A stretch of 53,141 bases of DNA from Clostridia bacterium. GTDB lineage: Bacteria; Bacillota; Clostridia; Oscillospirales; Acutalibacteraceae. The stretch is from the NCBI GenBank assembly GCA_017410195.1, contig JAFQRF010000040.1, forward strand, positions 1 to 53,141. Reading direction: 5' to 3'. Each line of letters begins with the position of its first letter. The first letter of the stretch is position 1. A program made the position numbers and the translations under genes. Positions 15,385-52,466 of this stretch are shown in pieces. The notes beneath the pieces are model-generated. The model made no database searches, had not been told where the DNA came from, and saw nothing but the letters and a program-made list of their open reading frames with translations.

Positions 15385-16350
15385 ATGAAACTCGGAGTAT
15401 TCACAACCTTACTTTCAAACCTCTCGCTTGAAGAGGCGCTCAAATATTTCAAGTCACTCGGCATCGAGATGGTCGAAATCGGCTGCGGCGGCTACCCCGG
15501 AAATGCTCATGCAAATCCCGAGGAGCTTCTCAACGACGACGCAAAGTTTGAAGAATTCAAGGCTCTTATCAAGAAATATGATGTTGAAATCAGCGCACTT
15601 TCATGCCACGGTAACCCCGTGCATCCCAACAAAGAAATTGCCGCGGATTATGACAAAACAATCAGAAACACAATTCTTCTTGCTGAAAAGCTCGGTCTTC
15701 ATCAGATCAATACTTTCTCGGGCTGCCCCGGTGACTGCGAAACAGCAAAGTATCCCAACTGGGTAACCTGCCCATGGCCCAATGATTTCGGCGAAATCCT
15801 TGAGTGGCAGTGGAACGAAGTTCTTATTCCCTACTGGAAAGATCTTGTTGAATTTGCAAAGGCTCACGGCGTTAACAAAATCGCTCTCGAGCTTCACCCC
15901 GGATTCTGCGTTTATAACACCGAATCTCTCCTTCGTCTCCGCGAGGCGGTAGGTCCCGAAATCGGTGCAAACTTTGACCCGAGCCACCTTATCTGGCAGG
16001 GTATGGACCCCGTTGCCTGCATCCGCAAGCTCGGCGATGCAATCTTCCATTTCCACGCAAAGGACACAAAGATTGATAAGTATAACACCGCTGTCAACGG
16101 CGTGCTTGACAATAAGCCCTACGGCGATGAAATCAACCGTTCGTGGATATTCCGTACAATCGGCTACGGCAACGACAATGCATACTGGAAAGAAATTATC
16201 TCAAATCTCCGTATGGTCGGTTATGACTATGCTATCAGCATTGAACACGAAGACTCACTTATGAGCCAGAATGAAGGTCTTTCAAAGGCAGTTTCATTCC
16301 TCAAAAATATAATTCTCACCGAATCCACAGGCGAAATGTGGTGGGTATGA
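15385..16350 (+). CDS. Sugar phosphate isomerase/epimerase family TIM barrel (321 aa)
   Basis: Longer TIM-barrel isomerase-like protein. Metal ligands lie in IALELHPGF, NFDPSHLIW, HFHAKDTK and ISIEHEDS, and the N-terminal CHGNPVHP loop is typical of the branch that accepts larger substrates. TAAGGAG and good spacing support the ATG at 15385. Third gene of the operon; a RAYT gene follows 28 bp after its stop. Probable roles are isomerisation or epimerisation of a keto-sugar, or cleavage of an oxidised glycoside made by the neighbouring oxidoreductases. The specific reaction is not known. Confidence 0.9.
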   Translation: MKLGVFTTLLSNLSLEEALKYFKSLGIEMVEIGCGGYPGNAHANPEELLNDDAKFEEFKALIKKYDVEISALSCHGNPVHPNKEIAADYDKTIRNTILLAEKLGLHQINTFSGCPGDCETAKYPNWVTCPWPNDFGEILEWQWNEVLIPYWKDLVEFAKAHGVNKIALELHPGFCVYNTESLLRLREAVGPEIGANFDPSHLIWQGMDPVACIRKLGDAIFHFHAKDTKIDKYNTAVNGVLDNKPYGDEINRSWIFRTIGYGNDNAYWKEIISNLRMVGYDYAISIEHEDSLMSQNEGLSKAVSFLKNIILTESTGEMWWV

Positions 16351-16378
16351 GTTTTGCGGAGCAAAACAGTGAAATGAT

Positions 16379-16915
16379 ATGAATACGGTTTCTGATGTTT
16401 TACCCAAGAGAAAGCTTCACAGACTCAAAAGCTGGGATTACAGCAGCAATGGATACTATTTTATAACGATATGCACTAAGGATAAAAAGAATTTGCTTGC
16501 TAATGTAGGGAACGCCGTCCCCGGCGTTCCGCCGGAGCTTACGCCAATCGGCAAGGCGATTGAAAGAGCCTGGAACAGAATCAATGATGTTGACTCTAAT
16601 TTTAAGACAGATTTTTTTCGGATAATGCCAAATCATATTCACGGTATAATTATAATTGAAAATCAAGAAGCTGATGTTTCTGATGCGGAACGCCGGGGAC
16701 GGCGTTCCCTACCGGATATTGTTCGAGGATTTAAGTCGGCTACAACCCGTGAATACAATAAACTTGTTCCGGAAAAAGACAGAAACAAGCTTTGGCAATC
16801 GTCTTTTTATGATGAGATTATTAAAAACGAGCAAATGCTTTTTGAGGCGAGAAAATACATAGAGTTTAACCACTTGAAACATTATAACGGGATATTGTTT
16901 AAGGGGCACGAATAA
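16379..16915 (+). CDS. REP-associated tyrosine transposase (RAYT, Y1/HUH family), 178 aa
   Basis: Single-stranded-DNA transposase-like nuclease related to IS200/IS605 TnpA. Motifs are NGYYFITICTKDKKNLL, the HUH pair in MPNHIHGIIIIE (His86, His88), a catalytic Tyr most likely Tyr126 in FKSATTREYNKL, and the C-terminal LWQSSFYDEIIKNEQ...YIEFNH block typical of RAYTs. All expected motifs are present, so it looks intact. Two identical inverted copies of a GTAG-headed 26-nt palindrome lie in frame in its coding sequence (residues about 43-51 and 103-112). Both fall in loops that vary between RAYTs. It sits inside a sugar operon, 28 bp after one gene and 19 bp before the next, without breaking it. 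RAYTs are thought to act on REP elements rather than to move themselves. Confidence 0.93.
   Translation: MNTVSDVLPKRKLHRLKSWDYSSNGYYFITICTKDKKNLLANVGNAVPGVPPELTPIGKAIERAWNRINDVDSNFKTDFFRIMPNHIHGIIIIENQEADVSDAERRGRRSLPDIVRGFKSATTREYNKLVPEKDRNKLWQSSFYDEIIKNEQMLFEARKYIEFNHLKHYNGILFKGHE
16505..16530 (+). repeat. REP-like element inside the RAYT gene, copy 1 (stem type B)
   Basis: GTAG, GGAACGCCG, TCCC loop, CGGCGTTCC: same geometry (4+9+4+9) as the intergenic elements but with another stem. It is translated as VGNAVPGV within the transposase. Confidence 0.9.
16687..16712 (-). repeat. REP-like element inside the RAYT gene, copy 2, inverted
   Basis: Exact reverse complement of copy 1 over all 26 nt, 156 bp downstream. 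It is translated as part of ERRGRRSLP. The two copies face each other, as in a BIME (paired REPs). Confidence 0.9.
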
Positions 16916-16934
16916 TTTTGAAAGAAGCGATACC

Positions 16935-18005
16935 ATGATCAACAATAAAATCGGCTGTGCCGTTATCGGTTACGGCGGAATGGGCGGATGGCATGCCCGC
17001 AAAATCAAGGAAGAAATGGGCGAATATGCCGAAGTTGTCGGCATTTTCGACATAAATCCCGAAAGAAAAAAGGTTGCCGATGAAAAAGGTTTTCATTTCT
17101 TTTCTTCAAGAGAGGAGCTTCTCTCCGACGAAAGAATCGACCTTGTAACAATCGCAACGCCCAACGACGTTCACAAAGAAATCGCAATTGATGCAATGCG
17201 TCACGGCAAAAACGTCATCAGCGAAAAGCCTGTCACCCTTTGCAGTGCCGACCTTGAAGAAATGATTGCCTGCGCAAACGAAACGGGCAAGCTTTTCACC
17301 GTTCATCAGAACAGACGCTGGGACGAGGATTATCTTACAATGAAGAAAATTCTTGACGAGAACACTCTCGGCAATGTTTTCAGAATCGAATCCCGTGTTC
17401 AGGGTTCAAGAGGCGTTCCCGGTGATTGGCGCAATCAGCCTCAGCACGGCGGCGGAATGGTTTTCGACTGGGGAATCCACCTTCTTGACCAGGCTCTTAT
17501 GATGACTCTGCCCCGAAAGCTTAAAACAGTTTATGCGGAGCTTACCAATGTCACCAACGAAAACTGCGATGACGGTTTCCGTACAACGCTTATTTTCGAT
17601 GACGGACTTTCGTTCTACGTTGAAGTCACAACAAGCAACTTCATCGAGCTTCCGCTCTGGTATATGCTCGGCGAAAACGGCTCTGCGGTTATCACCGACT
17701 GGGACTGCAACGGCAAAATCGTTATGGTTTCAGACTGGGAAAACAGAGATGCCGTTCCCATCGTTGCGGGTGCCGGCATAACCAAAACCATGGCACCCAG
17801 AACCGATGACACGATTCAGACATATCCCTTACCCGTTCAGAAGGCAAATTGGGGAGAATACTATAAAAATATTTTCGCTTATCTCAGAGGAGAAGCGGAC
17901 ATCATCGTCACTCACGACCAGCAGCGCAGACTCATGCGCCTTGTCGAAGCGATTTTTGAATCAGGCAAAACAAATAAGGTTGTTGAGTTTGAGGATATAA
18001 TTTAA
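16935..18005 (+). CDS. Gfo/Idh/MocA family oxidoreductase (356 aa)
   Basis: Third sugar-type oxidoreductase of the window. The Rossmann motif is AVIGYGGMGGWHA, the EKP motif is in NVISEKPVTL, and the catalytic block GGGMVFDWGIHLLDQALMM keeps Asp and His. The C-terminal half is the usual beta-sheet substrate domain. GAAAG about 10 nt upstream is a modest ribosome binding site. Last gene of the operon; a strong terminator starts 13 bp after the stop. It is not a close copy of the 13421 enzyme, so the two probably act on different intermediates. Confidence 0.92.
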   Translation: MINNKIGCAVIGYGGMGGWHARKIKEEMGEYAEVVGIFDINPERKKVADEKGFHFFSSREELLSDERIDLVTIATPNDVHKEIAIDAMRHGKNVISEKPVTLCSADLEEMIACANETGKLFTVHQNRRWDEDYLTMKKILDENTLGNVFRIESRVQGSRGVPGDWRNQPQHGGGMVFDWGIHLLDQALMMTLPRKLKTVYAELTNVTNENCDDGFRTTLIFDDGLSFYVEVTTSNFIELPLWYMLGENGSAVITDWDCNGKIVMVSDWENRDAVPIVAGAGITKTMAPRTDDTIQTYPLPVQKANWGEYYKNIFAYLRGEADIIVTHDQQRRLMRLVEAIFESGKTNKVVEFEDII

Positions 18006-49422: not shown

Positions 49423-49448
49423 GGCGGGATGAAGGCATCCCGCCCTAC
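49423..49448 (-). repeat. REP-like element, stem type A, inverted
   Basis: Read leftward: GTAG, GGCGGGATG, CCTT loop, CATCCCGCC. Stem identical to 1091-1116, with a different loop. Confidence 0.87.
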
Positions 49449-52440: not shown

Positions 52441-52466
52441 GACGGGATGAGGGCATCCCGCCCTAC
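52441..52466 (-). repeat. REP-like element, stem type A with one mismatch
   Basis: Read leftward: GTAG, GGCGGGATG, CCCT loop, CATCCCGTC. It lies between the aminotransferase stop and the tktN ribosome binding site. Confidence 0.85.

Follow-up and report, generated by a model that had tools for sequence, protein, structure and literature searches.

In the passages of Nunvar et al. 2010 (PMC2817692) drawn on here, rayt genes, which encode REP-associated tyrosine transposases (RAYTs), are flanked by two inverted, coevolving REPs, an arrangement termed the REPtron, and the portion of PMC8266576 used here reports that E. coli TnpAREP recognises the single-stranded REP and not its inverse, with GTAG involved in cleavage. 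Quentin et al. 2018 (PMC6006769), in their passages on RAYT subclass 2.4, describe REPs lying in frame within the genes, generally between HuH and Y, and call internal REPs unique to this subclass; a pair, its matching and a strand rule are not stated in those passages. The RAYT gene described here resembles subclass 2.4, as characterised there, in encoding a HUH-Y1 enzyme with a signature near Y---NP and in carrying long GTAG REPs in frame, and departs from it in that its REPs form a matched inverted pair, one member of which precedes the HUH motif at a fixed site, and replace the flanking REPs. Its likeness to the REPtron of the Nunvar excerpts lies in the two cognate inverted REPs, whose palindromicity and inverted arrangement survive change (PMC2817692), and the difference lies in the pair, or one member of it, being within the coding sequence. 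Palindromes in frame within genes are also found among intragenic REPs and Rickettsia palindromic elements (PMC3733652, as excerpted), which occur in various host genes, whereas here they sit in the gene of their own enzyme, at fixed sites and matched. Internal in-frame REPs and flanking REP pairs are thus already published, while a rule joining the two was not found in print in the portions of the literature searched, nor was any statement there of a matched pair with its first copy before the HUH motif, of inside/outside complementarity, or of in-gene four-arm co-variation.

The window, by which we mean the whole analysed stretch of 53,141 nt, is one contig (C33) of a clostridial genome of 2.36 Mb in 88 contigs. 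Its RAYT gene (Table 1) encodes a protein that matched Pfam Y1_Tnp (PF01797) above the cutoff (E 1.8e-6) and NCBIfam REP_Tyr_transpos (NF047646) at 60.9 bits (E 1.2e-16), below the higher curated cutoff of 80; a profile of 45 relatives (alignment A2) matched PDB 4er8, the E. coli TnpArep, at E 5.7e-11. Residues Y160 and N164 are invariant across the 45 sequences of this alignment, and the class 2 signature Y---NP reads Y---NH in the window protein, keeping Y---N with P replaced by H, while NP is present in all three of its paralogues. The protein carries the Y1 transposase domain with a HUH motif and a single tyrosine that defines a RAYT / TnpAREP, and the initial call of a RAYT with HIH and a tyrosine is borne out by the Y1_Tnp match, the HIH, the invariant Y160 and the 4er8 profile match. 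PHROGs returned no match.

Table 1. Positions of the RAYT gene, its motifs and its internal REPs in the window.
Feature	Positions	Strand	Basis
Gap between the preceding TIM-barrel gene and the RAYT gene, 28 nt	16351..16378	+	
RAYT (REP-associated tyrosine transposase) gene, 178 aa	16379..16915	+	ORF, PF01797, NF047646, 4er8 profile match
Internal REP '>' (F), GTAG foot 16505-16508 on coding strand, 9-bp stem, loop TCCC	16505..16532	+	
HUH motif (HIH, residues 86-88), flanked by the two REPs	16634..16642	+	sequence
Internal REP '<' (R), exact inverted copy of F, GTAG foot 16709-16712 on template strand	16685..16712	-	
Candidate catalytic tyrosine Y160 (YIEFN)	16856..16858	+	A2 invariance; PMC6006769 signature

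The inverted REP pair inside this gene is confirmed. The two identical inverted elements with GTAG, a 9-bp stem and TCCC loop reported by the first-pass annotation are exact at their positions, and the identity extends to 28 nt, F being the reverse complement of R over that length. Structurally, both hairpins fold as single-stranded DNA at -12 kcal/mol (z -4.0 and -3.6). The F element occupies codons 43-52 (VGNAVPGVPP, phase 0) and the R element codons 103-112, on opposite sides of the HIH in the protein, and the earlier statement that both are translated in frame at variable sites also holds, with the second falling in a gap of 4er8 in the profile alignment. The foot of the window stem, GGAACG, has two G-C and then A-T pairs, as against the three G-C pairs canonical for subclass 2.4. 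Since the pair is identical down to the loop, recent copying within the window gene is possible. No REP hairpin lies within 200 nt outside the gene, so the flanking arrangement of a REPtron is absent and the pair is internal; no further match to the element at up to 3 mismatches was found elsewhere in the window, nor any in 100 shuffles. Rfam gave no family at gathering score across 15800-17500, and scans of 16200-17100 recovered 3 promoter-like sites (2.1 in shuffles) and 1 terminator-like site (0.9 in shuffles).

Within its own genome, 11 places match the window stem family with at most 2 mismatches, and 9 of these lie beyond the window gene, so that occurrence elsewhere in the genome, which the first-pass annotation had made a test of its reading, is seen. 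Close inverted pairs of this family were present in 3 of 7 loci inspected (L009, L011, L015). Dispersed cognate GTAG REPs, as expected of a RAYT / TnpAREP, are therefore present in this genome. Four RAYTs are found at E up to 0.001, the other three being 43-47% identical to the window protein; the many near-identical gene copies of an IS200/IS605 insertion sequence are not seen among these four, the closest being 47% identical. A matched inverted pair recurs at the same two protein sites in three of the four paralogues, with three different stems: GGAACGCCG in the window, the GGCGGGGGC type in C42 and GGCGGGATG in C21. The fourth paralogue, C40 (stem GGGACGGC), has the first copy only, and a '<' copy lies 14 nt upstream of its gene. 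Each of these stem types is dispersed as well: C21 at 24 places, its own two included, leaving 22 others (up to 2 mismatches); C40 at 16 places, its own one included, leaving 15 others (up to 2 mismatches), with the exact stem at 3 places only, 2 beyond its own, and the remainder mostly a GGGACGAC variant; and C42 at 5 places, its own two included, leaving 3 others (up to 3 mismatches), one of them just downstream of the C42 gene.

Three REPs of the stem family of the C21 RAYT (GGCGGGATG...CATCCCGCC) lie in the window itself, at 1095-1116, 49423-49444 and 52441-52462 (the last with one mismatch), all more than 10 kb from the C21 RAYT gene. When L041 and L070 were set beside the window gene, L041, a RAYT of a different branch, was seen to have REP stems nearly identical to those of the window (GGAACGCYG), a likeness that suggests shared or convergent specificity.

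The arrangement was surveyed in two sets of loci, which are best-scoring matches and no random sample, with gene starts approximated by script and gene counts inflated by relatedness (four near-duplicate pairs per set). The discovery set comprised 133 loci (4 paralogues, 29 relatives, 80 named genome contigs and 20 fetched), from which four without a recognised HUH ORF (L053, L058, L090, L100) were left out. A strict in-gene REP hairpin was found in 111 of the remaining 129, compared with a mean of 1.85 and a maximum of 5 in codon-shuffled genes (20 shuffles). Twenty-five of the 129, in which the F copy lies only after the HUH motif, were set aside; these comprise 16 genes with one double-foot palindrome, none of them from records labelled clostridial, 6 with a separate '>' '<' pair (among them L071, better called double-foot) and 3 with only '>'. 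The 104 genes analysed divide into 53 with both copies inside, 32 with one and 19 with none. For the hold-out set, 394 genomes were searched order-wide and the top-scoring matches gave 110 loci, reduced to 105 by excluding 4 loci from discovery genomes and 1 without an ORF, and here 72 genes have both copies inside, 17 one and 16 none. Altogether, with the 25 set apart, 125 of 209 genes have one REP some 40 codons ahead of the HUH motif and another, inverted, beyond it; as L193 of the hold-out is identical to L134 of the discovery set, these are 208 distinct genes, 124 of them both-internal. The strict finder overlooked both internal copies in six genes (L046, L209, L213, L226, L230, L262). 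In clostridial-type genes the start of F mostly precedes that of MPNHxH by 37-43 codons and is nearly always in phase 0 (76 of 79 hold-out genes), and R mostly lies 11-26 codons after MPNHxH; F in phase 2 would put TAG in frame as a stop.

The two copies within a gene match each other. In the matching set (49 of the 53 discovery pairs, after removal of proteins at least 85% identical), F-R identity was 0.954 within a gene and 0.611 between genes (0 of 10000 permutations), and in the hold-out the stems gave 0.930 against 0.518 between genes (72 genes; 0 of 10000), or 0.929 against 0.519 without the duplicate gene (71 genes). With unequal-length pairs excluded from the stem/loop and arm counts, F and R differ at 10 of 809 stem positions and at 35 of 177 loop positions. 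Plain copying would bring the loop too, but the loops differ, which argues that the stem itself is held. Among 51 disjoint closest pairs of genes, 32 F-arm differences were counted, of which 30 are compensated within the hairpin, 25 are common to R, and 23 are reflected in all four arms. Intermediates with one entire hairpin altered (L112, L222) and unmatched pairs (L080, L091) also occur. The suggestion that the elements are traces of REP insertion that built new peptide loops fits partly, except that they are not mere traces, as they stay paired and change together.

Evolutionarily, the stems follow the enzyme. Gene pairs share the same stem (at least 0.95) in 89% of 18 pairs at a core identity of at least 0.8, in 38% of 92 pairs at 0.6-0.8, in 4% of 1893 pairs at 0.45-0.6 and in 0.00 (rounded) below that, and in an enzyme tree built without the REP peptides the stems run with the clades, although 39 of its 101 inner branches are open. 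For the 125 genes the correlation between F and R stems is r=0.90; for stem against enzyme core it is 0.38 (0 of 2000 permutations). Were selection acting on the REP-encoded peptides as functional loops, with the DNA match a by-product, the open frame of both elements in the genes counted would be accounted for; yet the two copies encode unrelated peptides from opposite strands while their DNA stems match, the F-R stem correlation exceeds that of the encoded peptides (Fpep-Rpep 0.63, 125 genes), and relatives carry quite different peptides there, so that we regard this explanation as highly improbable.

A second alternative is passive accumulation, in which REPs often insert within or beside the gene encoding their enzyme, the loops tolerate them, and either replacement or quasi-palindrome repair homogenises the copies, with no function involved. 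It agrees with the large number of dispersed REPs, with internal loops that vary like those of dispersed copies, and with the further own-type copy found nearby in 27 of the 125 both-internal genes. It does not predict the site and phase shared by most genes, and the stems that match though loops differ are not what plain copying would yield.

In the discovery set a cognate copy lies within 200 nt outside the gene in only 8 of 53 both-internal genes, leaving 45 of 53 without one, against 25 of 32 one-internal genes (Fisher 8e-9). In 23 of these 25 genes the missing orientation is among the outside copies, the exceptions being L029 and L062: genes with F only have a '<' outside and genes with R only a '>', either upstream or downstream. 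The strand prediction was fixed before the hold-out test. There the strict comparison found outside copies in 6 of 17 one-internal genes and in 10 of 68, a difference short of significance (p 0.079; leaving out the duplicate makes it 0.082 and changes nothing else). The missing orientation was present in 5 of the 6; in one of the 6, L227, the apparent outside copy is the F copy of a gene that a stop has interrupted. Once this strict result was in, a relaxed scan allowing up to 6 mismatches of 23-26 was devised, and it located the missing orientation inside the gene or no more than 200 nt away in 17 of 17 hold-out genes and in 30 of the 32 from the discovery set, 47 of 49 in all; in 12 of the 17 hold-out genes the missing copy lies within the ORF span, decayed, displaced or before a stop. 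The same orientation also reached that level in 4 of 17 hold-out and 17 of 32 discovery genes, partly because the elements are palindromic. Of the two orientations, the missing one matched better in 42 genes, less well in 4 (L029, L062, L260, L265) and equally well in 3. Foreign stems reached the relaxed level in 0 of 980 trials. Of individual cases, in L029 and L062 the only copy outside the gene has the same orientation, L062 having its missing copy inside with one mismatch; L103 is without a second copy (12 mismatches) and L140 has just a weak one (8 mismatches). Among the 35 genes without strict internal copies, a scan run without chance control placed a matching '>' '<' pair in the gene or nearby in 20 (one of them, L092, a G-run artefact) and none in 15.

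Such a rule would be expected were every locus required to offer a GTAG hairpin on both strands, its position being free and the reading frame one of the places allowed, and the supply of the missing strand in nearly all one-internal genes is not predicted by passive accumulation, which we consider unlikely. The rule also bears on autoregulation, the proposal that expression is damped by binding of the enzyme to GUAG hairpins in the mRNA that encodes it, or by a long mRNA duplex between the inverted copies. The coding strand does hold strong hairpins (with the folding energy given above, as DNA), and F and R form long complementary arms. Nevertheless, GUAG would appear in the mRNA only from '>' copies, yet '<' copies are also kept, and a reader of mRNA that sees one orientation only is thereby made less likely; outside copies, downstream ones too, occur where an inside copy is missing; the loops differ as counted above; and, as the element is itself a palindrome, two same-strand copies would pair nearly as well, so that a duplex cannot alone explain the strand rule. 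We thus hold autoregulation to be quite improbable. The first-pass interpretation accordingly stands in part: a RAYT gene with REP-type elements, in frame and at variable sites, is upheld, whereas its statement that known REPs lie outside the gene is at odds with the in-frame REPs within subclass 2.4 genes in the passages of PMC6006769, and its feedback through mRNA is not favoured, since what is conserved is a GTAG foot on each strand.

As for the history of the window locus, the RAYT gene lies within a series of sugar-catabolism genes on the same strand (xylose-isomerase-like TIM barrels, Gfo/Idh/MocA oxidoreductases, glucuronate isomerase and FGGY kinase). In 13 of 19 same-genus loci with the TIM-barrel gene (L331-L349) the oxidoreductase comes next, with its GYGGMG motif 59-230 nt past the TIM stop and no RAYT between; among the other six, the oxidoreductase was not found in five and the TIM end not found in one. 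Its absence at this position (compared over 16351-16934 of the window) in 13 of 19 loci indicates that the window RAYT is no fixed part of the operon, and that its gain or loss was recent and took place without flanking REPs. Nearest among the relatives found is L026 (50% identity, same genus), whose gene is preceded by a '>' '<' pair of the window's REP family, 46 and 10 nt upstream; with that pair outside and the window's inside, both placements occur within one small clade, from which we draw no direction. L026 also lacks internal elements and encodes different peptides at these sites, so that the comparison with a close homologue proposed at the outset leaves the original observation in place.

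In four of the same-genus loci (L334, L337, L340, L343) the spacer after the TIM-barrel gene, the place taken by the RAYT gene in the window, contains a tandem array of differing short palindromes separated by a near-constant GTGATAT, with a possible remnant in the gap before the window RAYT gene (16351-16378); an exact two-unit copy of this array was not found in the window genome.

REPINs, as described in the parts of PMC8049555 used, likewise join one '>' and one '<' REP with sometimes dimorphic ends, but have a short spacer, whereas here the spacer is the HUH-coding part and there is no sign of movement. Swapping of the HUH module via the REP pair was considered and rejected, as segments N, M and C gave no discordant pairs across 125 genes, a comparison of weak power on short segments. 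Genome G165 contains four dispersed '>' '<' REP pairs (L313, L315, L321, L326; 145-231 nt) whose '>' is GGCGCGACG and whose '<' is GGCGTGACG in 4 of 4, as if left and right ends were distinct; counter to that, both sides are of the CGCGACG type in two '<' '>' neighbours (C171, C186). A mobile spacer was likewise discarded there, the four '>' '<' pairs inspected enclosing intergenic DNA and other repeats and no RAYT fragments.

The anatomy, the matched pair, the four-arm co-variation, the stems following the enzyme tree, the dispersed copies and the inside/outside complementarity, by which both strands bear a GTAG foot in most loci, are direct observations. The reading that we favour, with fair confidence, is an internalised REPtron, in which the flanking REP pair has moved into the reading frame and retains the same DNA-level role, with a GTAG foot on each strand. 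RAYT genes normally lie between two inverted REPs; in this clostridial branch both REPs are inside the coding frame, the first within the variable stretch that precedes the HUH motif and the second, inverted, immediately past the HUH strand. By analogy with the E. coli and other TnpAREP enzymes covered in the excerpts of PMC8266576, the enzyme may bind and cut its own hairpins as single-stranded DNA, and the pair may serve as its cognate substrate or may seed further dispersed REPs. With a foot on both strands, a usable hairpin would become single-stranded no matter which strand templates lagging-strand synthesis, internal placement may be kept because enzyme and substrate would then be inseparable on transfer, and stems are probably replaced one hairpin at a time as specificity drifts.

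We put forward more tentatively, as a possibility to which we lean less, a law for this enzyme branch: that each RAYT locus needs a cognate GTAG hairpin per strand, for which the clostridial reading frame is the carrier. The double-foot palindrome of the 16 set-aside genes would satisfy such a law with a single element. If the law is true, each gene spells its own enzyme's DNA target, hundreds of enzyme-target pairs would be readable from coding sequences, and transferred genes would always carry their substrate. The pair touches on the questions of how REPs spread and of what use RAYTs are to their hosts, and it offers an unusually clean example of four-way compensation within protein-coding DNA. 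Models of REP mobility have to accommodate the strand rule, under which a foot per strand is kept while position is free, and, if the target is written in each enzyme gene, specificity would be decodable at scale and orphan RAYTs could be matched to REP families.
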